A DNA stretch of 64,000 bases from Bacillota bacterium (GTDB lineage Bacteria > Bacillota > Negativicutes > CTSoil-072): assembly GCA_017889545.1 (NCBI GenBank), contig JAGFZV010000014.1, forward strand, positions 1 through 64,000, read 5' to 3'. Both the position numbers and the translations under genes were made by a program. The notes under the pieces were generated by a model that searched no databases, was not told where the DNA came from, and saw nothing but the letters and a program-made list of their open reading frames with translations. Below are positions 2,090 through 27,278 of this stretch, in pieces. Every line of letters begins with the position of its first letter. Position 1 is the first letter of the stretch.

Positions 2090-2222
2090 GGATCGGCTAC
2101 ACCAAAATGGACAGAACGATTAAGGTTACGAAGGGCGATGAGGGCAGCTTCATCAAAGTTTAATGAAGAGTGAGCGAGGGTTTTCTTGGAGTATTGAGGT
2201 ATATCAAGAGGAGGATAATACC

Positions 2223-3257
2223 ATGCAAATCGCACAAAAATCCATCAGGATAATCGACTATGAACAGCAGAGAATTTTGACAAGAGAGACACCTGCGGCA
2301 TTTGATGCATACGTTGCTGAGTTGATAACCCATATCAGCAACAATGATTCTGTTCGCGAGTATAAAACTCGATCAAACGCAACAGAGGTCATCGGAAGTA
2401 TTTTGAATTTGTGCGCGAATCAAGCCGATACATCGGGTATCTCTTCCAAAATGGATAATGTGGCCAACAGGCTATTACTGAAGGAAGTTGCAGCACAAGA
2501 ACGCATTGCGCGTACAAGAACGAACGTGCAAAAAGGCAGCTTGATTCAGGCGCTACTTTCCGATACAGAAAACAACAACTACATTTACCTGTTGGCCAAG
2601 ATTGAACACTCTGAGTGGGTTGATGATGCCGACTTCACATTTAAAACAGGGTTTTCAAAAGATAAAAAAACAATATGGAAGTCGTGTCTGTTTGATTTGC
2701 CTGACCTGACTGCCACTGAATTTTCTGTAAAAATATACTCCAATACTGTTGCCAAGTATTGGAGCGATGACTTCTTGGAATTAGATGAAATGACCAGCGA
2801 CGAATCCAACACTACTCGAGCATTCAAAGCCATTGATGCCACGCTTAATCAAAACTTTCGGGGCATGTCCAGTCCGGACCATACAATCATCAGAAATGGT
2901 TTTATTTCATATCTTAAGAATAACGACCATATTGATTTTCCGACAATGGTTGATGCCGTCTTGGAAAGTTATGCTCCTGTCGATCCAGATATTAAGCCTG
3001 AAAAAATACAGGACATCAGAACAAAGCTATTGGAGCAACCGAGAAAGAGAGGTTTTGATAGTCAATTTAGACCCGTCAATAGTGCAATCAATGTTCGAAT
3101 AAGAAAAGTCTACAATATCAGCGATGGAATTGATTTGAAGGTTACCAGAGATATAGAAAATTTGTCCGCAACGATACAGGCCATCGAAGACAATGGCATT
3201 AGATATATAAGGGTAAGAACCAGTAACGACGCTACATTTAACAAGTTTCATTATTAA
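2223..3257 (+). CDS. Possible nucleoid-associated (NdpA/YejK, NA37-like) protein
   Basis: A 344-residue soluble protein. The start is ATG 2223 because AGAGGAGG lies just upstream; the frame is open further upstream without a better signal. Layout and spacing recall the NdpA/YejK (NA37) family: a short N-terminal beta segment beginning MQIAQKSIRIIDYEQQ, a central strand region with GSLIQALLSD and YIYLLAKIEH, then a long segment (KIYSNTVAKYWSDDFLELDEM) leading into a helical C-terminal part. The resemblance is by eye and weak. The known family binds DNA; some relatives occur in defence contexts. It is followed 38 bases later by a membrane-anchored protein in the same orientation, and both are more AT-rich than the chromosome core, which suggests a transferred two-gene module. 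Confidence 0.55.
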   Translation: MQIAQKSIRIIDYEQQRILTRETPAAFDAYVAELITHISNNDSVREYKTRSNATEVIGSILNLCANQADTSGISSKMDNVANRLLLKEVAAQERIARTRTNVQKGSLIQALLSDTENNNYIYLLAKIEHSEWVDDADFTFKTGFSKDKKTIWKSCLFDLPDLTATEFSVKIYSNTVAKYWSDDFLELDEMTSDESNTTRAFKAIDATLNQNFRGMSSPDHTIIRNGFISYLKNNDHIDFPTMVDAVLESYAPVDPDIKPEKIQDIRTKLLEQPRKRGFDSQFRPVNSAINVRIRKVYNISDGIDLKVTRDIENLSATIQAIEDNGIRYIRVRTSNDATFNKFHY

Positions 3258-3295
3258 GTATTCCCGATAATCGACTCAGGGAAAGGAGATGCAAC

Positions 3296-4777
3296 ATGAA
3301 ACTGTTTTCTGAAATTAAGCGGATATTTCAATGTGAAGAACTTTGCATCTCTGAGCGAAGGAGTACGGTTGAGGCTTCATTGACAACAACAATTCAGAGA
3401 CTTCCTGATATATCCAATATTGAGTTAATTTGCAGTCTTGTTCCTTTGCGAGATACTTTGACGATGTCCTTCAAAAATGATAGCAATGACATATTAAGTG
3501 TTTCGAATAAATTGATGATTATGCCTGATTTCGCAAGACTGACTGAAGGAATGACACAGAATGACAACATCGAAATAAGAATTCAAATTGACAAGACTGT
3601 TTCGGCAAATAAATTCTCTATATACAATTTTGATACATTTTCTGAAGATTTATTGCGTATTCCTATGGTCGATATTTTGAAATGGTTTTCTGAACTTTTC
3701 TCATCTTATGAATACTTGGTGTTTGAAGTGTTTGACTCAAATATCTCGTTTTCATCAGAAACGATGGCATTCGTGTCTAACGAAAGTTCGGTGTTTTCAC
3801 CGAGCTTTACAAGAAGTCAACGGTTGCGCGTTTGTAAAGAAACAGCGTATTTTTATAACATGAATACCTTCGAGGTAATCCCGGAAGACTTCGTCATTGA
3901 GGGAATAGAGCAAAACGATAATTGTTTTAGACCGCTCTTTGAAAAATTGGCAACAATACTTTCATTAATTTATGTGGCATCGTCTGCTTCTATTGTGGAA
4001 ACAGCTCTTAACATCCAAATTAATGGACAAAGAGCTATAACTCACTCATTTGACCTAGAAAGCATTCGCAAAAACCCAAAGTGGTTATCCATTTATTATT
4101 GGATTTATACGGATGGAAACCCAACCGACAAGGCGCTCATTGCTCACAATGTTATTAGCCTTCATTGCAAATATGCCGATTTGTTGGACATAGACGAAAA
4201 AGTTTATGATTCCATCAAGTCAAACTATAATCTATACTTAAGAAATAATGTTGTTCATTACCTCGAGTTAAAAAAAGACATCTCAAAGTTTATTCGAGAT
4301 GTTGTAGCTCAGGTTGGGGATTATGTAGTATCAACCCTAAATAAATTCAAAACTAACTTGATTGCAATATTTGGTTTTCTTTTTACGGTCGTTTTAACAA
4401 AAGTCGGAGCGACTCAGAGGTGGGACAACATTTTTTCAAGAGATGCCATTTACATTATTGAGTTAGTAATTATAGGTTCATTGGTATATTTGGTGATTTG
4501 TTTTTTCGAGGTACGTTACAAACTGAAGAAAACGGAACAGGCATACAATGCGCTCAAGAACAACTACGAAGATATTCTTTCTGAGGCAGAAATTAAGGAA
4601 GCGTTTGGAAAAGACAAGCTCTTTGTAGATGCAGAAAAATCCACGAGAAAGGGGATTTTTTTGTGGTCAGCTATTTGGGGAGTATTATTAATTGCAACAA
4701 TTATTATTATTGAGTTCATTACATCAAATAGAGGTGTATTTTCGTGGTTACTTCAAAAAATATTTGTCGTTAATTAG
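3296..4777 (+). CDS. Unrecognised protein with C-terminal membrane helices
   Basis: A 493-residue protein preceded by GGAAAGGAG. The first ~355 residues are polar with no motif I recognise. Three hydrophobic segments follow, at about residues 358-375 (NLIAIFGFLFTVVLTKVG), 390-410 (IIELVIIGSLVYLVICFF) and 455-475. Between the second and third is a charged helical stretch (KKTEQAYNALKNNYEDILSEAE) that may form a coiled coil. A large cytoplasmic sensor region coupled to a few C-terminal helices is a common layout for membrane-disrupting effectors of phage-defence systems. Pairing with the preceding NdpA-like gene supports a shared function, but this remains inference. Confidence 0.6.
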   Translation: MKLFSEIKRIFQCEELCISERRSTVEASLTTTIQRLPDISNIELICSLVPLRDTLTMSFKNDSNDILSVSNKLMIMPDFARLTEGMTQNDNIEIRIQIDKTVSANKFSIYNFDTFSEDLLRIPMVDILKWFSELFSSYEYLVFEVFDSNISFSSETMAFVSNESSVFSPSFTRSQRLRVCKETAYFYNMNTFEVIPEDFVIEGIEQNDNCFRPLFEKLATILSLIYVASSASIVETALNIQINGQRAITHSFDLESIRKNPKWLSIYYWIYTDGNPTDKALIAHNVISLHCKYADLLDIDEKVYDSIKSNYNLYLRNNVVHYLELKKDISKFIRDVVAQVGDYVVSTLNKFKTNLIAIFGFLFTVVLTKVGATQRWDNIFSRDAIYIIELVIIGSLVYLVICFFEVRYKLKKTEQAYNALKNNYEDILSEAEIKEAFGKDKLFVDAEKSTRKGIFLWSAIWGVLLIATIIIIEFITSNRGVFSWLLQKIFVVN

Positions 4778-5784: not shown

Positions 5785-7212
5785 CTATAGTCCGCACCAT
5801 TTCCAATACGGATAAGCGATAAGCACGAGGAATATTCCGGTAACGAACATACGGGGAAGCATCACTCTGATTATGGAGTTTAAAGACATATAGCCGAAGG
5901 AATACACGTACAGCAGTACGGCATATTCATAGGGGAATAAATACTGGTCTACGCCATATTTGAAAACATAGACGAGCAAATACGGATGAATACCTAATTG
6001 GAGGGCAATCTCAGCAATAGTCGTGGTAAACATCGCCACTGCCGCCAACGGTGTTAAGAAAAACTTCAAAACAACGCCGAAGAAATACACACACATATAG
6101 GTATACAGCGAACTTCCTTGAAGCATCGGAATTAACGTATTGGCCGCCAATTTAACAATGCCCGTCTGTCCGGCAATTGGTCCGATTGACATTGCGCCAG
6201 CCACGAAAAACACCATTGCAAAATTGGTCTTGTTTAAATCCTGCACCTTCAGCACGCCTACCCCAGGGATAAATGCAGCGGCGGCAACCATCATCAGCAC
6301 CCAGCCGACATCAACTTTGTGAAGAAAATCGGTCACCATTAAAAGCAATGCAAGTCCAAGAAAAACAGCAGCTTTCTTTTCTTGCCCTGACATAGGACCC
6401 AATTCCTGATAACGCGTTTTAATCACGTCGATTGAATCAAATTCCTTGTCAGGCTTAATCGTCAAAAATAAAACGAACAAGGCAAGAAAGCTATAGATAA
6501 CACCAATAATCGCATTATGAAGAGCAAATTCACCCCAGGTAATCATCGTGCCTGTTACTTTTGCTACTAGGCCCATTGCCAGTGGTCCATCGCCTGCTCC
6601 GGTAAGATAGCTGAGCTTTGGTCCGGCCACAGCCAGAAATGCGCCCAGCATGATCCCCGATGCGGTTTTCGATTGCGGTTCCAGATTTAAAGCCTGGCAA
6701 ATTGAAACCCCAATAATGGCAAACAGGGCTGCCTTCCCAATAATGGAAGGGATCAAGGGAGCAACCACAAGACCGCCTAGCATCAAGCCAATTATGGTCC
6801 GTTTATACGATCCGCCGGTAATAAGAATGGCTTTGTATGCTACCCTTGACGCCAAGCCGGTCGTCATCATCATGGCGGTGAGAATTAAGCCGCCAAATGA
6901 GATCCACGGAACATTCGTCAGCCATGGCGAAAACGCATCCTTGGCCGTTGCTACGCCGACAACAATATACAGCACGGGCAAGATAAAACCGACGACAACT
7001 TCAGGGATAATTCCAAACACCCATGACGCCACTGCCCATGACGTTATCGCTAAAAATTTCAAGATAGGTTTCGTTAACACCGGAGTTGCGGGCATCAAAA
7101 AAAAGATCAGAGGAACACCAAATGCAATGATCCATTGTAAATATAATTTCGTTTTAGATTTGGGTTTTGCTTCGAGTTTGGGGGAACTTGGGGGTTTTTG
7201 TGTAGTACTCAT
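5785..7212 (-). CDS. DASS/SLC13-type anion permease
   Basis: A 475-residue inner-membrane protein of the divalent anion:Na+ symporter type. It has a short polar N terminus rich in P, S and K, then a dozen or so hydrophobic segments. Family-like stretches include the region around residues 95-120 (PWLTNVPWISFGGLILTA) and a late segment with MFTTTIAEIALQLG. Substrates in the family are di- and tricarboxylates or sulfate; which applies here cannot be read from sequence. The start is ATG 7212, preceded by AAGGAGG; the frame stays open 17 codons upstream without such a site. Arylsulfotransferase 1 lies upstream on the same strand, so uptake of an anionic substrate or export of sulfate for that pathway is a reasonable guess. 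Confidence 0.85.
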   Translation of the reverse strand: MSTTQKPPSSPKLEAKPKSKTKLYLQWIIAFGVPLIFFLMPATPVLTKPILKFLAITSWAVASWVFGIIPEVVVGFILPVLYIVVGVATAKDAFSPWLTNVPWISFGGLILTAMMMTTGLASRVAYKAILITGGSYKRTIIGLMLGGLVVAPLIPSIIGKAALFAIIGVSICQALNLEPQSKTASGIMLGAFLAVAGPKLSYLTGAGDGPLAMGLVAKVTGTMITWGEFALHNAIIGVIYSFLALFVLFLTIKPDKEFDSIDVIKTRYQELGPMSGQEKKAAVFLGLALLLMVTDFLHKVDVGWVLMMVAAAAFIPGVGVLKVQDLNKTNFAMVFFVAGAMSIGPIAGQTGIVKLAANTLIPMLQGSSLYTYMCVYFFGVVLKFFLTPLAAVAMFTTTIAEIALQLGIHPYLLVYVFKYGVDQYLFPYEYAVLLYVYSFGYMSLNSIIRVMLPRMFVTGIFLVLIAYPYWKWCGL

Positions 7213-7320
7213 GTTATCCTCCTTAATTCTAAATAGTTCCAGAAACATTCCTTTTTTACACAATACCGATTTGAAAAATCTTCATTGTTGTTTGTATGAT
7301 CTTTCACTTATCCGGTCACA

Positions 7321-11863: not shown

Positions 11864-11909
11864 AAAAAAATCGCTTTTGGACGACTTCAAGGAAATCATC
11901 CAAAAGCGA
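11864..11909 (-). terminator. Strong terminator ending the gcvH-lpd-grx-ASST2 operon
   Basis: TCGCTTTTGGA and TCCAAAAGCGA pair over 11 bp, and on the minus strand the stem is followed by seven T. It separates arylsulfotransferase 2 from the lipoprotein gene, so the latter needs its own promoter. Confidence 0.85.
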
Positions 11910-11934
11910 CATTGCTTTCGCACACTATTGTTTT

Positions 11935-12001: not shown

Positions 12002-13435
12002 TTATTCGCTGGCTTCCTCCCCCGCGGCAACGCACAAGGCGGTGTCTCCCTGATAACCTCTCACTCCAGCCACCGTCGTTTCACGTAAATGGCCGGCAGG
12101 CGCAGCGCCAGGCATGCGAAAAGTTTTTACGTTAACGCGTTTTACCGGCACTTCTGTCGGAGTCGGCAATTGCGGAACCCACTCATACGGCAGGCGGTAG
12201 GCGCGATATACCATGTTCAGGTTCAGTTTTTCACCCCAATATGGGCTGATGTATTCCCAAACCAATTCATGTTTGGCCGTAACTTCGATGACTCGTCCGC
12301 CTGAGCCTTCGGTAATTAAGGTATTGCCATTCGGCAGGCGTTGAGCGCCGCTGATAAACGGGCTGTAGAAACGGTTCGAATCGACCGGATGAAGATATCC
12401 GGCTTCATTAGGTGTATACTGCCACACAATCTTCAGTGTAGTCGGATCAAATTCAAGTACCCGCGAATAATCACGCAGGGCGTTTTTCGCACCGGTAGGC
12501 GAACCAGGGTTCGGCGCTCCATAACCGGCCCAACCACCATTATCAAAGACCAGAATATTTCCTTCACCGGGCAGTCCGCGCGGGATCATATGGGCATGAT
12601 GCTGACCAATAATCCAGCCTAACGCCTTCAATTCCGGGCTGCTGTCATAATATGGTCCGACTTTCCAAGCAATTTTACCGGTTTTTTTATCGATAATCGC
12701 AATAATATTCGTTTCCCGGCCATCCCAAATAATATTATCCGGATGGAACCGTTCATCGCCGGCATCATACCATTTATTTGGCCCTAATACCGACATGGAG
12801 TTGATGTGCATCCAGTCGCCGCCGGTCGGCCTCATGTTGGGATCGCGGCTCATGATGTTTTTGGCTGCTTCATCAAAGCCGTATTCGTCAAAATGATCGC
12901 TGCAGGTCCATTCCCAAACAATGTCGCCATTCCAAGTCGTTTCAATGATGACATCATCAATCAGCACTTTGTCGGAAATTTTGGGGTTTTTAACATTTTT
13001 ATGGCACAGGATCAATGTGTTTCCTTTGTCAACTTGCGGGTCCATCCCGGGAACATAATAGCCCACGGGGTTTCCTGCCCGCTGGTAATCATGGTGCTGT
13101 CTGGCCATCCACTGCGGTTCCTCGCCCGGATCTTCAATATACTCTAACTGATTGAATTTCCAGACGATATTTCCGTCAAAATCAACCTGGATCAAATCAG
13201 TTTGATCCTGCATACCAAAAGCATTGTTTCTTTCGCCGGAATGACCGAGCACATAACCGCCCGGCAGCATTTTGTTGGGAAATCCATGCAAGCCTTTCCA
13301 TAGCTGAACTTCCGCTCCGTTCATGTCGATCAACAGGGCGCCTTTTTCCCGTGCCTGATAAATCGTGTAACCGCTCCAGCATTTTTCAGGGTTGTACACA
13401 GTGACTCCAGTTGGATACACGCTTGGATATGTCAT
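12002..13435 (-). CDS. Arylsulfotransferase-family beta-propeller protein (copy 2)
   Basis: A 477-residue paralogue of copy 1; over the first ~146 aligned residues I count about 23 differences. Blade motifs DGNIVWKF (87-94), NGDIVWEW (169-176), TGKIAWKV (252-259), LKIVWQY and HELVWEY are visible, with histidines at 114-115, 210, 279, 280 and 282 in the same contexts as copy 1. No signal peptide. The start has AAGGGAGGGG upstream. It is the last gene of an operon reading GcvH, Lpd, Grx-like, ASST2, with 33-63 base gaps. That links a sulfuryl-transfer type fold to a lipoyl carrier and its reductase, a combination I do not know from a described pathway. Sulfotransferase activity itself is inferred from family. 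Confidence 0.8.
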   Translation of the reverse strand: MTYPSVYPTGVTVYNPEKCWSGYTIYQAREKGALLIDMNGAEVQLWKGLHGFPNKMLPGGYVLGHSGERNNAFGMQDQTDLIQVDFDGNIVWKFNQLEYIEDPGEEPQWMARQHHDYQRAGNPVGYYVPGMDPQVDKGNTLILCHKNVKNPKISDKVLIDDVIIETTWNGDIVWEWTCSDHFDEYGFDEAAKNIMSRDPNMRPTGGDWMHINSMSVLGPNKWYDAGDERFHPDNIIWDGRETNIIAIIDKKTGKIAWKVGPYYDSSPELKALGWIIGQHHAHMIPRGLPGEGNILVFDNGGWAGYGAPNPGSPTGAKNALRDYSRVLEFDPTTLKIVWQYTPNEAGYLHPVDSNRFYSPFISGAQRLPNGNTLITEGSGGRVIEVTAKHELVWEYISPYWGEKLNLNMVYRAYRLPYEWVPQLPTPTEVPVKRVNVKTFRMPGAAPAGHLRETTVAGVRGYQGDTALCVAAGEEASE

Positions 13436-13468
13436 GCAATCCCCTCCCTTTACTAGTGGCGTTCTTCC

Positions 13469-14308
13469 TTATGCTTTCTCAATGTCAACGAGTACCTGAT
13501 GGTTCCGGGCTGCTGTCCGGTACCGGAATAACATGTCCGCTGTCATTGCCTCTGCCAATTTTAGCCGCTCATCCTGCAGTTCCGCCGGTTTGGCAAGAGC
13601 GATAAAATAAGGTAGTTTTTTGTTTCCGGTGACTTGATCCAGCCATTTTGCCGTTGCGGCAACTTCCTCCGGTTGGAGGTAACTGATGGAACCATCCTCA
13701 CGAAACACCGGAACAATACTGGTCCGGAAACGATAGGCCGGCGCCGTGATGACAAGCGCCATACTTTTTTCAATGTCTGCCGCATCTACTGCTTCGCCCA
13801 CGATTTGACCGTACAAAGCGCCTGGCCCTTTGATATTCATGATCACTACATCAGCCAGTTTCTCAAGTAAGATTTTCTCCAAAATCGCCGGGTTTCTGCC
13901 GTCCGTGTCCATTTGCAGTTTCATATTGTTTGTCTTTAAATATCTGAGCACATTTAAAAATTCTTCGGCATACTCTGGATTTCCGCCAGAAATATGAATC
14001 CCGTCCACCCATTCTTTATGCAAGGAACCCACCGAAAAAAATCCATTCAATTTTTCCTGATAGTTCAGGTGCGCCAATACCGGGCCAATTCCCTGCCGGA
14101 TGACTATTCCATCGCTGAAGATCGGAAACTCCACACCATCGGCGCCGCGATAAATGGCTTTGCGATTTGCTGCGTAAAATTTTTGAAAAGCTTCTTTGCC
14201 TTCCGCTTTCATATCCTGTTCTTCATAGGCAATGCCAAGCTCGGACATGCACCGTTTGGCGATTTTACAGCGGGTACAGCCGGTTGCTGAATAAATTGTG
14301 TTGCTCAT
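13469..14308 (-). CDS. Glutaredoxin domain fused to a half PFL-activase-like barrel without the radical-SAM cluster
   Basis: A 279-residue protein in two parts. Residues 1-80 are glutaredoxin/NrdH-like, with redox pair C11-T-R-C14 and a further C20, followed by YEEQDM and the cis-proline-type region VEFPIFSDG. Residues 95-260 resemble the second half of pyruvate formate-lyase activating enzyme: ISGGNP (106-111, compare SGGEP), QMDTDGRNP and VVIMNIKGP. The CxxxCxxC motif that binds the radical-SAM iron-sulfur cluster is absent and the N-terminal half barrel is replaced by the glutaredoxin. It is therefore not a radical-SAM enzyme by sequence, but a thiol-redox protein that may bind a glycyl-radical-type partner or nucleotide. 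It lies between Lpd and arylsulfotransferase 2 in one operon, so a disulfide relay with the lipoyl carrier is plausible. Confidence 0.7.
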   Translation of the reverse strand: MSNTIYSATGCTRCKIAKRCMSELGIAYEEQDMKAEGKEAFQKFYAANRKAIYRGADGVEFPIFSDGIVIRQGIGPVLAHLNYQEKLNGFFSVGSLHKEWVDGIHISGGNPEYAEEFLNVLRYLKTNNMKLQMDTDGRNPAILEKILLEKLADVVIMNIKGPGALYGQIVGEAVDAADIEKSMALVITAPAYRFRTSIVPVFREDGSISYLQPEEVAATAKWLDQVTGNKKLPYFIALAKPAELQDERLKLAEAMTADMLFRYRTAARNHQVLVDIEKA

Positions 14309-14341
14309 TCTTTTCTCTCCTTTAAAACGGGGTTTTCGTTT

Positions 14342-15724
14342 TTACAAATGTACGCCATGGCCGGCAAGAACATGAAGTCCTTCCACAACCGCTTCGCTTA
14401 AGGTAGGGTGCGGGTAAACCACCTGAGACAATTGAGCGGTAGTCGCTCCCAATGCGATCATGGTTGCCGGACCGGCAATCAATTCCGTAACATGCGGTCC
14501 AATCATGTGCGCCCCCAACAGTTTGTCGGTTTGCGCGTCAGCGATCAGTTTCACAAAGCCGGCATTTTCATTCATGGCCAATGCTTTTCCATTGGGCACA
14601 AAAGGGCTTTGAACCGTTTTAATTTCGTACCCGCGTTCTTTTGCTTGTTTTTCCGTGAGTCCGACAGAAGCAACTTCGACTGTTGAAAAAATGCAGCGGG
14701 GAATATTTTCATATACCAGGGTCTGGGTTTGTTTGTTTGCTATGGCCTCAGCGGCAATCATTCCTTGAGCGGAAGCGACATGCGCCAAACCCATTTTCCC
14801 ATTGGTATCGCCAATCGCATAGATATTGGCCACGCTCGTACGCATCTGTTCATCAATTTCGATCCGTCCGCGGTTGGTCGCTACACCGATTGCTTCGAGA
14901 CCGAGCTGCGCAATTTGCGGCGCAAAACCGGTAGCCACCAAGACTTTTTCCACGACGATCTTCTCTTGAACTTCTCCATCCAGAACCGTTACTTCTACTC
15001 CTGCCGGCGTTTTGACAACACTGGAAACTTTCACGCCGGTTTTTACCTGAATCCCGGCTTTGGCAAATTGCGCCGCCGCTTCCCGGCATACATCTTCATC
15101 CTCGGACGGAAGCACGTACGGCATCATTTCTACCGCCGTGACTTTGGCGCCGTAACGGTTCCAAAGGGTCGCAATTTCCATCCCGATCGGGCCAGCGCCG
15201 ACAATCAGCACGGATGCCGGAACTTTGTCCAACGCTAGGGCTTCCCGCGCGGTAATAATGGTTTCGCCATCGAGGTCTATCCCCGGAACCGATCGCGGTT
15301 TGGCGCCGGTCGCAATAATAATATTTTTCGCCGATACGGTCTCGCCGGAAGGCTGCAATTCGATCGTCGTTTGGTCGATGAAGCGGGCTTCCCCTTTTAA
15401 TACCGTTACGTTGCGGTTTTTGAGCAGAATTTCCACGCGTTTTCCTTGCCGTTTGGCAACTTGCCGGCTGCGCTGAAAGGCGGAAGCATAGTCTACGGAA
15501 ACGGTTCCGCATTGGAAACCAAAGCTTCGTTCCTGAGAAAGCAAATGAACCACTTCCGAATTGCGAAGCAAGGACTTCGTCGGAATACAGCCCCAGTTTA
15601 CACAGGTTCCACCCAATTGGTCTTTTTCGATCAGAGCTGTTTTGAAGCCCAGCTGACTGGCACGGACCGCTGCCACATAGCCGCCTGGCCCGCCGCCAAT
15701 TACAACAACATCATATTGAACCAT
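14342..15724 (-). CDS. lpdA: Dihydrolipoamide dehydrogenase
   Basis: A 460-residue flavoprotein disulfide reductase that reoxidises a dihydrolipoyl group with NAD+. The FAD-binding GGGPGGYVAA (10-19) is followed by the redox disulfide C41VNWGC46. A second Rossmann motif (VGAGPIGMEIA) binds NAD, and the C-terminal dimer region carries the catalytic HPTLSEAV histidine. The length fits the family. The usual partners (E1/E2 of a 2-oxoacid dehydrogenase, or glycine cleavage P and T proteins) are absent; instead the gene is flanked by a GcvH-like carrier and a glutaredoxin-like protein, so its substrate is most likely that carrier. Confidence 0.93.
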   Translation of the reverse strand: MVQYDVVVIGGGPGGYVAAVRASQLGFKTALIEKDQLGGTCVNWGCIPTKSLLRNSEVVHLLSQERSFGFQCGTVSVDYASAFQRSRQVAKRQGKRVEILLKNRNVTVLKGEARFIDQTTIELQPSGETVSAKNIIIATGAKPRSVPGIDLDGETIITAREALALDKVPASVLIVGAGPIGMEIATLWNRYGAKVTAVEMMPYVLPSEDEDVCREAAAQFAKAGIQVKTGVKVSSVVKTPAGVEVTVLDGEVQEKIVVEKVLVATGFAPQIAQLGLEAIGVATNRGRIEIDEQMRTSVANIYAIGDTNGKMGLAHVASAQGMIAAEAIANKQTQTLVYENIPRCIFSTVEVASVGLTEKQAKERGYEIKTVQSPFVPNGKALAMNENAGFVKLIADAQTDKLLGAHMIGPHVTELIAGPATMIALGATTAQLSQVVYPHPTLSEAVVEGLHVLAGHGVHL

Positions 15725-15787
15725 TCATCTACGTCTCCTTACTCTTACTTGTATCGTTTTACCGTTTACAATATAACACCGCTATGA

Positions 15788-16192
15788 TTACAGCTGACCG
15801 CTGTATTGTTCGTTCGTTAACAACCCATCCAGTTCTTTCACGTCATCCGGTTGAATAACAATCATCCAGCCGGCGCCATATGGATCTTGATTGACTAATT
15901 CCGGTGAATCTTCAATCTCCGAGTTCACCGCTACAATTTTGCCGCCTACCGGCATAAAGAGCGCCGATACCGATTTGGCTGATTCCGCGCTGCCAAATTC
16001 CTTGCCCTGCAAAAAAGCATCCCCGACTTGCGGCAGTTCAATGTAGATAATATCGCCCAACTGATCCTGGGCAAAATCGCTGATTCCTACTTTGATCTGA
16101 CCATCCTCCAGTTTCGCCCATGTATGTTCCTTGTGATAGCGAAGTTCTGCCGGAAAATTTAAATCCCCTACGTTTTTTTTGTCTTCTGCCAT
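15788..16192 (-). CDS. GcvH-like lipoyl carrier protein
   Basis: A 134-residue protein of the glycine cleavage H family. The lipoylated lysine is K73 in ESAKSVSALFMP, preceded by LGDIIYIELPQVGD and followed by NPELVNQDPYG-type sequence (here SPELVNQDPYGAGW). The start has AAGGGAAGGG upstream. It heads an operon with Lpd, a glutaredoxin-like protein and arylsulfotransferase 2. No glycine dehydrogenase or aminomethyltransferase is near. In sulfur-oxidising bacteria GcvH-like LbpA proteins carry sulfur rather than an aminomethyl group; a comparable carrier role is possible here but is inference. Region 16193-16544 holds candidate operators. Confidence 0.88.
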   Translation of the reverse strand: MAEDKKNVGDLNFPAELRYHKEHTWAKLEDGQIKVGISDFAQDQLGDIIYIELPQVGDAFLQGKEFGSAESAKSVSALFMPVGGKIVAVNSEIEDSPELVNQDPYGAGWMIVIQPDDVKELDGLLTNEQYSGQL

Positions 16193-16544: not shown

Positions 16545-17885
16545 ATGCAGACGGATTCTAAACCTTTGGGCAGAATTAACAATTATTTCGATGGGTTGCC
16601 GGTTTCTACCGTTCACAAAATTTTGTTCTTTATTATTATGATGTCTTATTTTTTCGAACAAATGGACAACTGGAATTTTGGTTTTATCGCGCCTGTCCTA
16701 ATGAAAAACTGGGGACTTACTATGGCGGACATTGGCAAAGTGAACTTTTACTATTTTTTAGCCATGACTTTGGGCGGTCTGACTGGCGGCGTCATTTCCG
16801 ACTTCATTGGCCGCCGGAAAACTTTCTTGGGCGCGATTGTGGTATTTTCGGTCGGATCGATTATCTCCGGATTTGCCACTGATTTGTTTACCATCATTTG
16901 GAGCCGGGCAATGACCGGCTTTGGTGTTTTTTGTCTAATGGTCTGTTCGCAAGCTTATCTGGCCGAAATTTCTCCAGCGGAAACCCGCGGCAAATGGCAG
17001 GGGTTGGTCGCTGCCGTTGGCTTTACAGCCGCCCCGCTGGTTGGCGGACTTTGCCGCTGGATCATTCCGATGTCACCGGAAGCCTGGCGATATATTTTCT
17101 TCTTCGGCGGGCTAGGATTAGTCGGTTTTCTCGTTGGCCTTAGGTATTTAAAAGAATCACCGCGTTGGCTGGTAGCGCAAAAACGCGTTACAGAAGCGGA
17201 GCAAGTGATTGAAGATCTTTCCGGCATCCGCGTGGACTTGAGCGAAGTTGCCGCCAAAGTGGAAGTCCGCCACAGTCCGGTTGAGGTTTTCACCGGCATG
17301 TTCTCTGCGAAATATCTGAAGCGGACACTGGTATTGCTCATCTGGGTGGCCTTTACCGTTCCAGCCACTTTTATTGTCACTGTTTGGACGCCAACTCTTC
17401 TGAACAAACACGGATTAAGCGTAGAAGATAGTTTAATGGCTTCCTTTATTTTGATGATCGGCGTACCGGTTGGCTGTTACATCGCCTCTCTCATTTCTGA
17501 CAAGGGCGGCCGCAAAATACCGCTTTGCGCTACTGCCGTCGCCATAACGATCTTTGGTCTCATTTTCAGCCAGTTGACTTCCTTCTGGCCGCTGACCATC
17601 GCCGGTTTTTGTCTCATCTCCTCAGTCATGGCGAATGGGTTTATCACGTTCAGCTATATCGCCGAATCGTACCCTACTAAAATGCGCAACACGGCAACTG
17701 GCATTCAAATGTCGGCCGGCCGCCTGGCAACCTCTTTTATGCAGCCTGTCGTTCCCATCGTTTTTGCCGGGTATGGTTTTTTCGGTGTGTACGGGTTGGT
17801 CGCATCCCTCTGTGTTTTACCGCTTCTTGTCGTTTTAGTCTGGGGTATTCGAACAGGCGGCAAATCTTTGGAAGAGATCAGTTAA
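16545..17885 (+). CDS. MFS transporter, aromatic-acid/sugar-porter type
   Basis: A 446-residue major facilitator with twelve predicted helices. Signature loops are GGVISDFIGRRKT (between helices 2 and 3, about residues 80-95) and SLISDKGGRK in the second half, with ESPRWL after helix 6, typical of the sugar-porter/aromatic-acid:H+ symporter families. A charged central loop lies at about 205-255. The start ATG 16545 follows AAGGAGG. It is divergent from the GcvH operon and shares its control region, so it may import or export the substrate or product of that pathway. The substrate is not deducible. Confidence 0.85.
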   Translation: MQTDSKPLGRINNYFDGLPVSTVHKILFFIIMMSYFFEQMDNWNFGFIAPVLMKNWGLTMADIGKVNFYYFLAMTLGGLTGGVISDFIGRRKTFLGAIVVFSVGSIISGFATDLFTIIWSRAMTGFGVFCLMVCSQAYLAEISPAETRGKWQGLVAAVGFTAAPLVGGLCRWIIPMSPEAWRYIFFFGGLGLVGFLVGLRYLKESPRWLVAQKRVTEAEQVIEDLSGIRVDLSEVAAKVEVRHSPVEVFTGMFSAKYLKRTLVLLIWVAFTVPATFIVTVWTPTLLNKHGLSVEDSLMASFILMIGVPVGCYIASLISDKGGRKIPLCATAVAITIFGLIFSQLTSFWPLTIAGFCLISSVMANGFITFSYIAESYPTKMRNTATGIQMSAGRLATSFMQPVVPIVFAGYGFFGVYGLVASLCVLPLLVVLVWGIRTGGKSLEEIS

Positions 17886-24214: not shown

Positions 24215-25663
24215 TTACTTACTCGGAATACCGGCAATGGCTTTGGCCAATTCCTTCTTTTGTTCCAAATTGCCCTGACGGGAAATCATGATGCGCTGCG
24301 CTTGCGGCGATCCTGCACCGTGCATGGATTCAGTGCGGTAACCAACAGCCGCCGTTCCCAGTGTGATATTCTCAATTAAACGCAGAATGCGCATCCGGTA
24401 CTCGGTTGGCACCGAAGCGATGCCCTTGAAATATTTTTCCACCACTTTCCCAATCACAGGGTGGCGCAAATCTTTCTCCGACGGCATCGTTACCATCAAC
24501 CCGCCGGCAATGTCTTCCGCCAAGCGAGCAATTTCATACGGGAACCGGGTAACATTTTGTTTACAGACGTTCGCCAGCAGCAAATCAATAAGATACGTTC
24601 CTGAAGCAGTCTTGTGTCCTTCTGCTGAGCAGGCAATACCACAGGAGTACAAAGTTTCATTCAGATGAATCATTTCGATCAGTTTATCTTTAAGATGAGA
24701 TGCTTTCGCTGCGCCGTTGTAATCGGCCGCCAACGCCACCGCACCAATCAGCACATCACCGACGCCGACCTTGCAGCCGCCATAGCTTTGACGATGATAA
24801 CCGGCAAACCGTTCTACCAGGGTACCGCTGAATTCATATTCTCCGCACATAAACACGTTTTCCCACGGAATAAACACATGATCAAAAACCATCAATGCTT
24901 CATGTCCGCCAAATTGTTTATTGCCGACATCAATGTCGCCGCCCTCCAGTTTGCGGGTATCGCAGGATTGACGCCCATAGATGTAAAAAATACCTTCCGC
25001 ATCCGCCGGGGCGCAGAAAGAAACCGCATAGTCCGCGTCTTCTTTGCCCATGGAAATCGTCGGCATAACCAAAATCCAGTGGGAATTAATCGCGCCTGTT
25101 TGGTGAGCCTTCGCGCCACAGATCACAATTCCATCTTCCCGTTTTTCCACAACACGGACAAAGAGGTCTGGATCTTCTTGTTTGCTGGGAGCAAGACCCC
25201 GGTCACCTTTCGGGTCTGTCATCGCTCCGTCGACAGTCCAGTCTTCTTCTTGCATCCGAGTTAAAAACTGGATAAATCGCTTGTGATAATCGGTCCCCAG
25301 TTTTTGGTCCATTTCAAAGGTGGTGCTGTCAACCGCATTGATCGCATCCATACCCACACAACGTTGGAAGCAGGCGGCCGTTTTTTGTCCTAATAACCGC
25401 TGCATTTTTACTTTTTTCACTAAATCTTCAGCACTTTGATGCAGATGGCAAAAGCGGTTAATTTTTTCTCCGGAAAGATGGGAGGTTGCGGTCATCAAAT
25501 CCGCATATTGCGGATCTTCCGCTAATTCATAAGTTGCCTTGACGGAATTCATTGATGGCCGAATAATCGGATGATCCACTGGGTTTTCCACCAATTCGCC
25601 CTGCAAATACACTTTAAAGTTGAGTTTACGCAGGCTTTCTTCATATTGTTGCGCTGTTTTCAT
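24215..25663 (-). CDS. abfD: 4-hydroxybutyryl-CoA dehydratase / vinylacetyl-CoA isomerase family
   Basis: A 482-residue flavin and [4Fe-4S] enzyme of the AbfD family, which dehydrates 4-hydroxybutyryl-CoA to crotonyl-CoA. All four expected cluster ligands are visible: C98 and C102 in CFQRC, H290 and C297 in HRQSYGGC, matching C99, C103, H292 and C299 of the clostridial enzyme. The start ATG 25663 follows GAGGGGG; the frame is open 13 codons further up. Paralogues acting on other substrates share the fold (4-hydroxyphenylacetate hydroxylase group), but full ligand conservation favours the dehydratase. Transcription is predicted from a sigma-54 promoter controlled by the adjacent enhancer-binding protein. 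No CoA transferase or 4-hydroxybutyrate dehydrogenase gene is adjacent. Confidence 0.88.
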   Translation of the reverse strand: MKTAQQYEESLRKLNFKVYLQGELVENPVDHPIIRPSMNSVKATYELAEDPQYADLMTATSHLSGEKINRFCHLHQSAEDLVKKVKMQRLLGQKTAACFQRCVGMDAINAVDSTTFEMDQKLGTDYHKRFIQFLTRMQEEDWTVDGAMTDPKGDRGLAPSKQEDPDLFVRVVEKREDGIVICGAKAHQTGAINSHWILVMPTISMGKEDADYAVSFCAPADAEGIFYIYGRQSCDTRKLEGGDIDVGNKQFGGHEALMVFDHVFIPWENVFMCGEYEFSGTLVERFAGYHRQSYGGCKVGVGDVLIGAVALAADYNGAAKASHLKDKLIEMIHLNETLYSCGIACSAEGHKTASGTYLIDLLLANVCKQNVTRFPYEIARLAEDIAGGLMVTMPSEKDLRHPVIGKVVEKYFKGIASVPTEYRMRILRLIENITLGTAAVGYRTESMHGAGSPQAQRIMISRQGNLEQKKELAKAIAGIPSK

Positions 25664-25710
25664 TCCATTTGTCCCCCTCATACAATTTGGTTCATATAGC
25701 AATATTACTA

Positions 25711-25871: not shown

Positions 25872-27278
25872 TCATTTTTTACATAGTCCATATTTTCGCG
25901 CCTTTCGGTAAGCAGTGGCCCGATCGATTCCCAATTCCACTGCTACCCGGTCCCACGAAAGGTATTCCTGATAGGCATCGGCAAGCAAATTTGCTTCCGC
26001 TTGCGCCAACATCTCTTTCATTTTCATATTTTTCGTCGGACTATACGTTTTTTTTCGTATATACTCAGGCAAATGTTCCACTGAAAGTTCATCATCGCTC
26101 GACGTAACGACCATTCGTTCAATAATATTTTCCATTTCCCGCACATTGCCCTTCCACTCATACTCCGTCAATTTATCGATAGCGGCGGCAGAAAATAATT
26201 TATTGTAAGAAAACTTCTTATTGTACTTGTCCAGAAAATGCCAAATCAACATGGGGATATCTTCTCTGCGGCTCCGCAGCGGCGGCAAATGAATTGGCAC
26301 AACCATGAGCCGGTAATACAGATCGTCCCGAAAGGCGCCGGCGTCCACCATCTTGGTAAGGTCACGATGCGTAGCGGCAATAATTCTGACTTTTACGCTG
26401 ACCGGTTTGGTTCCGCCAACCCGCATAATTTCTCTTTCCTGCAGCGCTCTGAGTATCTTGACCTGCAAAGCCGGCGTCATATCACCTATTTCGTCAAGAA
26501 ATAACGTTCCGTTGTGGGCCAGTTCAAACAGGCCGGGTTTTCCTTCTTTTCCAGCACCGGTAAACGCCCCCTTTTCATAGCCAAATAGTTCGGATTCCAA
26601 TAATTGTTCCGGAAGAGCGGCGCAATTAATTTTGATAAACGGCTGTTTTACGCCCTTGCCGGCTCCGTGTATCAACTTGGCGATCAACTCTTTTCCGGTC
26701 CCCGATTCGCCGGTAATCAGCACAGTGGAATCCACATTGGCTACTTTTCGCGCCGTTGCCAACACCTTTTCCATTGACTGACTGCGAAAAATGATATCCT
26801 TCGTATCCATCTGCATCGAGCGCAAATGCGAAAGCTCTGTCTGATACTGCAACGTCCGCTCTTTGGTTTTTTTGATCTGCTCTTGAAGCCGGGCCAGTTC
26901 AGTAATATCGCGGACATTTGTGACAACCCGGAACAGTTGTCCTTTGCCATCAAAAATGGGGTTCCCGGTCACCAGATATTCGTGGCTCCCTCTAATATTT
27001 TGCGTAATCGTGATCCGTTCTTTTTTTTCCATGACCAGCAATGTCACCGACTGGTCATAATATCCAACATCGATTAAATCCTTCATGTTTTTACCGACCA
27101 CTTCATCCGCCTTGATTCCCGTAAGCCGCTCATAAGCCGCATTCATGCGCAGGACCACTCCATTGCCGTCGGTGATAAACAGGCCGTCATAGGAAGAGGC
27201 AATAATCGCTTCCAATTCCCGCATAACAGTCTTCGCTTCATTGAGTTCCGAAATATGCTCTCCGGTTGCTTTCTTCAT
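25872..27278 (-). CDS. Sigma-54-dependent enhancer-binding regulator (PAS-AAA-Fis)
   Basis: A 468-residue activator. A PAS sensor domain covers about residues 20-130 (DGLFITDGNGVVLRMNAAYERLTG), then a coiled linker, then the AAA+ domain with Walker A GESGTGKE (190-197), the sigma-54-contacting GAFTGA (237-242) and Walker B GTLFLDEIGD (257-266). A Fis-type HTH ends the protein (about 440-466; WDRVAVELGIDRATAYRKARKYG). It activates sigma-54 promoters from upstream sites. The next gene on the strand has just such a promoter and dyads, so the two form a regulator-target pair. The PAS ligand is unknown. Confidence 0.93.
   Translation of the reverse strand: MKKATGEHISELNEAKTVMRELEAIIASSYDGLFITDGNGVVLRMNAAYERLTGIKADEVVGKNMKDLIDVGYYDQSVTLLVMEKKERITITQNIRGSHEYLVTGNPIFDGKGQLFRVVTNVRDITELARLQEQIKKTKERTLQYQTELSHLRSMQMDTKDIIFRSQSMEKVLATARKVANVDSTVLITGESGTGKELIAKLIHGAGKGVKQPFIKINCAALPEQLLESELFGYEKGAFTGAGKEGKPGLFELAHNGTLFLDEIGDMTPALQVKILRALQEREIMRVGGTKPVSVKVRIIAATHRDLTKMVDAGAFRDDLYYRLMVVPIHLPPLRSRREDIPMLIWHFLDKYNKKFSYNKLFSAAAIDKLTEYEWKGNVREMENIIERMVVTSSDDELSVEHLPEYIRKKTYSPTKNMKMKEMLAQAEANLLADAYQEYLSWDRVAVELGIDRATAYRKARKYGLCKK

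Follow-up and report, generated by a model that had tools for sequence, protein, structure and literature searches.

The window, a 64,000-nucleotide stretch of a Bacillota genome, encodes a GcvH-like lipoyl carrier, a dihydrolipoamide dehydrogenase (Lpd), a glutaredoxin-barrel (Grx-barrel) protein and an arylsulfotransferase (ASST) in one operon, for which we favour, with somewhat more confidence than doubt, a role in the reductive desulfurylation of organic sulfate esters. The substrates are probably aryl sulfates. More tentatively, and with doubt slightly outweighing confidence, the operon could provide an ATP-independent, previously undescribed entry to sulfite respiration, in which a beta-propeller "organosulfate reductase" would pass the sulfo group to a protein thiol and sulfite would be freed by NADH electrons arriving via the lipoyl domain. 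The parts are known by family (PF05935, GcvH, Lpd and glutaredoxin); their combination is not a sulfonucleotide reductase but would work in the manner of one.

The operon, its products and its conservation

An ORF check of the window revealed four tandem minus-strand reading frames, all open, spanning 12002–16192 in the 5′ to 3′ order GcvH-like, Lpd, Grx-barrel and ASST, with gaps of about 63, 33 and 33 bp. The operon and its surroundings comprise the following features:

15788–16192, minus strand: GcvH-like lipoyl carrier, operon gene 1, 134 aa; lipoyl lysine K73 in ESAK73SVSALFMPVGG
14342–15724, minus strand: Lpd, 460 aa; redox pair C41/C46 in GGTC41VNWGC46IP
13469–14308, minus strand: glutaredoxin plus degenerate radical-SAM/NrdG-like barrel, 279 aa; C11-T-R-C14, no cluster cysteines
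12002–13435, minus strand: cytoplasmic-type ASST, 477 aa; H210, N212, R240 and H279, with C468 in the C-terminal tail
11870–11910, minus strand: strong rho-independent terminator at the operon end; 19 pairs, T-rich tail
16545–17885, plus strand: MFS transporter, aromatic acid/H+ symport-like, divergent from the operon; related MFS beside the module in L006, L024 and L026
18014–18742, plus strand: Crp/Fnr-family regulator, likewise divergent from the operon; relatives 40–44% identical beside the module in L006, L024, L025, L026 and L032
7403–8896 (likely start 8845), minus strand: second ASST, 84% identical to the first; C-terminal cysteine kept
5785–7263, minus strand: DASS-family anion transporter adjoining the second ASST, a pairing also seen in L007, L028 and L084
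9063–9758, minus strand: second Crp-family regulator (family profile), upstream of the second ASST

The type of the regulator (Crp/CprK-like) and the family of the MFS protein (aromatic-acid permease) presumably hint at aromatic ligands.

In a profile scan, the carrier matched GCV_H (1.3e-39) and TIGR00527 (148.6 bits against a cut-off of 115.85), Lpd matched TIGR01350 lipoamide_DH above cut-off (526.7 bits) and the ASST matched PF05935 Arylsulfotrans (7.8e-27, 94.7 bits against a cut-off of 24.2). The Grx-barrel protein gave a weak N-terminal glutaredoxin match and an NrdG2 match (TIGR02495) over residues 97–209 (Pfam/NCBIfam). A sequence-only reading of this DNA had described a four-gene operon at these positions closed by a single strong terminator, which the ORF and hairpin checks bear out. 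It had named the products a GcvH-like protein with a K73 lipoylation motif, an Lpd with intact C41/C46, a glutaredoxin-fused protein and an arylsulfotransferase-family protein; profiles and alignment agree on the carrier, both Lpd cysteines are present, the PF05935 match supports the last assignment and the fusion partner of the glutaredoxin domain can now be named as a radical-SAM-like barrel.

The AlphaFold2 model of the Grx-barrel protein (pLDDT 92.9) matched the PFL-activating enzyme 3cb8 (barrel) and the NrdH redoxin 1h75 in Foldseek. Alignment of its relatives left C11 and C14 (GC11TRC14) as the only invariant cysteines, and since these alone are invariant the protein should bind no radical-SAM cluster. 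The CxxxCxxC [4Fe-4S] motif is absent from the barrel part across the same alignment, and we rejected a radical SAM/NrdG activase identity on this ground despite the PFL-AE-like barrel fold. A selenoprotein/Uxx-star link of the glutaredoxin domain was also dropped, as Uxx_star scored just 23.2 bits against a cut-off of 66.

As the most specific part of the module, the Grx-barrel protein served as bait for a conservation search. Relatives 49–65% identical were found in 11 of 398 sampled Bacillota genomes, with further ones in a same-class genome (G021), in Desulforamulus aquiferis (strain Bs105, L005) and in a Desulfotomaculum MAG. Ten of the 11 genomes also encode a close ASST (72–84% identical), usually adjoining (Fisher 8.5e-13); in the exception, G313, an ASST was not found and the Grx protein aligns only in part. 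Recurrent neighbours of Grx and ASST are GcvH, Lpd, LipB-LipA, a Crp regulator and a transporter of the organic-acid type. The order is GcvH-Grx-ASST-Lpd-LipB-LipA with MFS, LysR and Crp genes in L006 and L024, GcvH-Grx-Lpd-LipB-LipA in L005 and GcvH-Lpd-Grx plus ASST and DASS in L007, while L025 combines a TRAP transporter with ASST and Grx. Four loci (L025, L027, L031 and L034) carry Grx and ASST without GcvH or Lpd, a point against the desulfurylation reading. The module thus occurs in many genera, including other Bacillota, and is not unique to this strain.

The lipoyl carrier and the arylsulfotransferase

K73, in its ESxK context, is invariant across 13 aligned GcvH proteins. In a tree without six long-branch or fused rows, the nine GcvH proteins from the operons group together with 100/100 support, apart from the remaining GcvH copies of their genomes; with all rows included they are split from most other copies at 89/98, and a single origin is then no more than compatible with the tree. 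Three further GcvH copies are present in the window genome: one in a gcvT-gcvH-gcvPA-gcvPB cluster recognised by eye from the sequence (G000:C10, L036), one accompanied by Lpd and OsmC (L037) and one as a DGC-GcvH fusion (L114). No gcvP or gcvT gene was seen among the ORFs of the operon locus. The sequence-only reading had noted the absence of glycine cleavage P and T genes, which holds near the operon and fails genome-wide. The operon carrier falls in another clade and the genome has a gcv set elsewhere, so these comparisons indicate that it is not the H protein of glycine cleavage in the window genome; we rejected a glycine cleavage role for it on the same two grounds. The LipB-LipA genes inside the operon in three relatives imply that lipoylation has its own dedicated supply in some lineages.

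Profile matches of the ASST were limited to PF05935/PF14269, with no PF01507 catalytic domain. Alignment to E. coli AssT (3elq) through the family profile paired H210 with H356, N212 with N358, R240 with R374 and H279 with H436, the sulfo-histidine of AssT; for the AssT variant chain 4p04, that alignment has N in place of H436. The catalytic His, Asn and Arg residues are also common to the related ASSTs of other loci described below. Sequence alignment gave no placement for a counterpart of AssT H252, and AssT's Cys-containing insertion (TCNENGLC) has no equivalent in the ASST. No signal peptide was recognised by eye at the N-terminus, which reads as cytoplasmic. C468 (motif xCV, near the C-terminus) is the sole cysteine invariant across 16 divergent ASSTs, one of them 25% identical, and a cysteine in the C-terminal region is retained in all 19 ASSTs of a 630-aa type that were examined. 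The AlphaFold model of the ASST (pLDDT 51) was too poor for placing C468 relative to H279; a fold search with this poor model returned the Cpz4 and AssT propellers as best matches, which supports a propeller fold and no more.

The window genome encodes five ASSTs. Judged by size and host type, D. hafniense AST, at about 70 kDa (PMC11468790), and other characterised enzymes probably belong to the 630-aa type. In vitro, characterised enzymes of this type transfer sulfo groups to phenols and alcohols, and a reductant is not mentioned in the reports consulted, which counts against the desulfurylation reading. According to a 2026 review (PMC13426309), what bacterial PAPS-independent aryl sulfotransferases do in the cell is poorly understood and their natural substrates are unidentified.

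Thiol partners and the link to sulfite

Away from the Grx-type loci, dedicated thioredoxin (Trx) and thioredoxin reductase (TrxR) genes lie beside ASST in G062, G211, G143, G091, G281 and L005, with lipB-lipA following the ASST/Trx/TrxR genes in G281. The window genome itself has the ASST-Trx-TrxR neighbourhood twice (contigs C31 and C3; L140 and L141). In L078 the ASST is fused to a C-terminal thioredoxin domain, with TrxR adjoining, a single case in 198 genomes of its order. These arrangements hint that the ASST itself is the client of a dithiol system, the L078 fusion being the strongest pointer. Five ASST genomes (f48) have an ABC transporter and no adjacent thiol partner, which counts against the desulfurylation reading.

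DsrA was present in all 11 Grx-module genomes and in 44 of 387 others (55 of 398 in total), an association with a Fisher value of 1.4e-10, or 6.7e-8 after collapsing by genus, in statistics that treat related genomes as independent. Among 14 genomes encoding an ASST of the 630-aa type, 13 also had DsrA. In the window genome, which is 96% complete, TauE-like exporters accompany dsrA, dsrB, dsrC and dsrMK-like genes (L113). ATP sulfurylase (Sat, PF01747) was not detected in this genome or in eight others, making nine of 12 module genomes; AprA exceeded its cut-off only in the three module genomes with Sat, the window genome not among them, and no PF01507 (PAPS-reductase family) protein was detected in the window genome. 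By the routes searched (ATP sulfurylase, AprA and PF01507), the organisms without Sat look like sulfite respirers that lack sulfate activation, so organosulfate-derived sulfite would be valuable to them. Sulfonates, among others, are a possible alternative source of sulfite in these genomes. In L079, an SsuA-like ABC transporter, an ASST, a Cys/Met PLP enzyme, a sulfite reductase, TusA, a thioredoxin and a ThiF protein are encoded in one run, which makes sense if the ASST yields sulfite, implying that sulfite is its product.

A reductive scheme, its rivals and known systems

From the observed genes, gene order, residue conservation and co-occurrence, we infer the following scheme. An imported ester, R-O-SO3−, would sulfurylate H279 of the cytoplasmic ASST with departure of R-OH, as the conserved catalytic residues suggest. 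The sulfo group would then pass to a thiol rather than a phenol, either C468 or a thiol of the Grx/lipoyl partner, giving a thiosulfonate, R-S-SO3−. Electrons would flow from NADH through Lpd, dihydrolipoyl-GcvH and the Grx CxxC pair to the thiosulfonate, releasing sulfite, with Trx and thioredoxin reductase taking the place of the Lpd/GcvH/Grx relay in related loci. The sulfite could serve as acceptor through DsrABC/MK, whose genes are present, or be assimilated in other hosts. The conserved C468 and the Trx/Grx partners are suggestive in this respect, as they fit an enzyme thiosulfonate reduced by Trx/Grx.

The operon ASST might instead act as a PAPS-independent sulfotransferase of the ordinary kind, or stand in for a sulfatase, and move sulfo groups between phenols for detoxification or scavenging, with Lpd, GcvH and Grx merely keeping its cysteines reduced. 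Conservation of the ASST catalytic residues, phenol-to-phenol transfer by characterised relatives and the loci that consist of an ABC transporter and ASST only all accord with such a role, whereas the association with DsrA, the sulfite-reductase operon of L079, the dedicated LipB-LipA and one invariant cysteine in two ASST types only 25% identical would be left unexplained, and we regard it as unlikely. Alternatively, GcvH, Lpd and Grx could reduce a target other than the sulfo group, such as some unrelated thiol intermediate or, by reductive dehydroxylation, the aromatic product, the ASST just unmasking the substrate. The variety of transporters (MFS, DASS, TRAP and TTT) and the DapA-, LarA- and gluconolactonase-like neighbours in one locus leave room for a role on the carbon side. 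These carbon-side neighbours are not conserved, whereas the thiol systems and DsrA are, and the direct Trx-ASST fusion marks the ASST as a redox client; this version appears improbable.

Sulfur oxidation of the sHdr-LbpA type, in which sulfane sulfur bound to the carrier would be converted to sulfite and Lpd would reoxidise dihydrolipoamide and make NADH, has precedent in the essential role of GcvH-like carriers in sHdr sulfur oxidation and in sulfur-oxidising archaea, where the hdr cluster is linked to an Lpd gene (PMC6067878). Genes for an hdr-like complex are absent from the module loci examined (no hdrC1B1A-hyp-hdrC2B2 cluster was recognised by eye among their ORFs), the maturation genes in three loci are LipB/LipA and not the LplA-like ligases of hdr-lbpA clusters, and the module co-occurs with DsrA in genomes mostly without Sat and AprA. 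We rejected sHdr-type oxidation for want of hdr genes in the module loci and consider it highly improbable. With no hdr-like genes, an Lpd present and co-occurrence with sulfite reduction, the most likely direction of the module is reductive. The sequence-only reading had suggested a lipoate-linked step of aryl-sulfate or sulfur metabolism by analogy with sHdr; the aryl-sulfate link stands, given the separate GcvH clade and the recurrent gene set, and the analogy with sHdr oxidation lacks support. That reading knew of no such pathway, and likewise we found no published account of an ASST with a lipoyl/thioredoxin/Dsr module in the open-licence literature, which is not proof of novelty.

Were reductive desulfurylation confirmed, a sulfotransferase family of unknown natural function would gain a role in producing sulfite from organosulfates, and lipoyl carriers would gain a reductive role in sulfur metabolism. 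Anaerobic sulfur cycling would acquire a source of sulfite that bypasses ATP sulfurylase and AprAB with no ATP spent, so that bacteria without sulfate activation could respire organosulfates. It would also provide a second, unrelated fold for reducing a sulfo group to sulfite in a thiol-dependent way.

The module shares features with several known systems. Its GcvH and Lpd belong to the same families as those of the glycine cleavage system (TIGR00527 and TIGR01350, both above cut-off), whereas the locus lacks P and T genes, its GcvH falls in a clade of its own and the canonical set lies at L036. The ASST shares the PF05935 family and the aligned catalytic His, Asn and Arg residues with E. coli AssT and Desulfitobacterium hafniense DhAST (cluster II). 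Unlike them it reads as cytoplasmic, lacks the TCNENGLC insertion and has dedicated dithiol-reducing partners and an invariant cysteine in the C-terminal region; at about 480 aa it is merely 25% identical to the cluster-II-like 630-aa type. The sHdr-LbpA system likewise devotes a GcvH-like lipoyl carrier to sulfur metabolism and has maturation genes close by (PMC6067878), whereas the module has no hdr-like complex, has LipB/LipA in place of an LplA-like ligase, has a carrier that scores above the GcvH equivalog cut-off and is proposed to run in the opposite, reductive direction. APS reductase forms a thiosulfonate-enzyme intermediate, which thioredoxin reduces, and the plant enzyme carries a fused C-terminal redox domain (PMC6827007), an arrangement comparable to the ASST-Trx fusion of L078. 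The proposed logic would be shared with PAPS/APS reductases (CysH and plant APR): an enzyme thiol forms a thiosulfonate from which Trx or Grx frees sulfite, and the net reaction would resemble theirs with a ready-made organosulfate in place of the ATP-activated sulfonucleotide. In contrast to these enzymes, the ASST beta-propeller is unrelated to the PF01507 fold, no nucleotide would be involved and a lipoyl carrier would act as the reductant.

ASST genes in the window genome and beyond

The window genome carries five arylsulfotransferase (ASST) genes in total. Two of these encode the 630-aa type, each with its own thioredoxin/thioredoxin reductase (loci L140 and L141; contigs C31 and C3), and another, on contig C7 (L082), encodes a protein 80% identical to the operon ASST, with a LarA-like lactate racemase nearby. 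At one locus that carries the module (L030:6754-12976), it is surrounded by genes resembling those for gluconolactonase, DapA and LarA and by genes for TTT-type transporters, neighbours that for this lineage hint at a setting of sugar acids or hydroxy acids. Genomes of 6.5–7.3 Mb in family f48 (L071, L072, L075, L077) share the gene order MarR-like, ASST, SsuABC-like sulfonate-type ABC transporter; no thiol partner adjoins ASST at these four loci.

Other window genes

Window 24215-25702: 4-hydroxyphenylacetate 3-hydroxylase (HpaB)-family protein
Window 25872-27278: PAS/sigma-54 activator, adjoining the HpaB-family gene

The host of this HpaB-family gene is an anaerobe-type genome. Two neighbouring ORFs at 2163-4777 (364 and 493 aa) have no Pfam match at E ≤ 1e-5.

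Further lipoyl-carrier loci

L037:7961-10221 (contig C18): GcvH and Lpd, together with an OsmC-like protein and a gene resembling those of sodium:solute symporters
L114:6693-10542 (contig C40): two DGC-domain proteins, DGC-GcvH fusion, small ferredoxin, unassigned 155-aa protein, Lpd

The former is the third GcvH–Lpd pair of the window genome that by appearance does not serve glycine cleavage. The latter constitutes a second, unexplained lipoyl-carrier system; nearby lie apparent genes for regulators of the ArsR type, a permease of the arsenite type and a methyltransferase resembling ArsM. GcvH fusions of 290 aa resembling its DGC-GcvH protein occur in two other genomes, G313 (L110) and G422 (L107).
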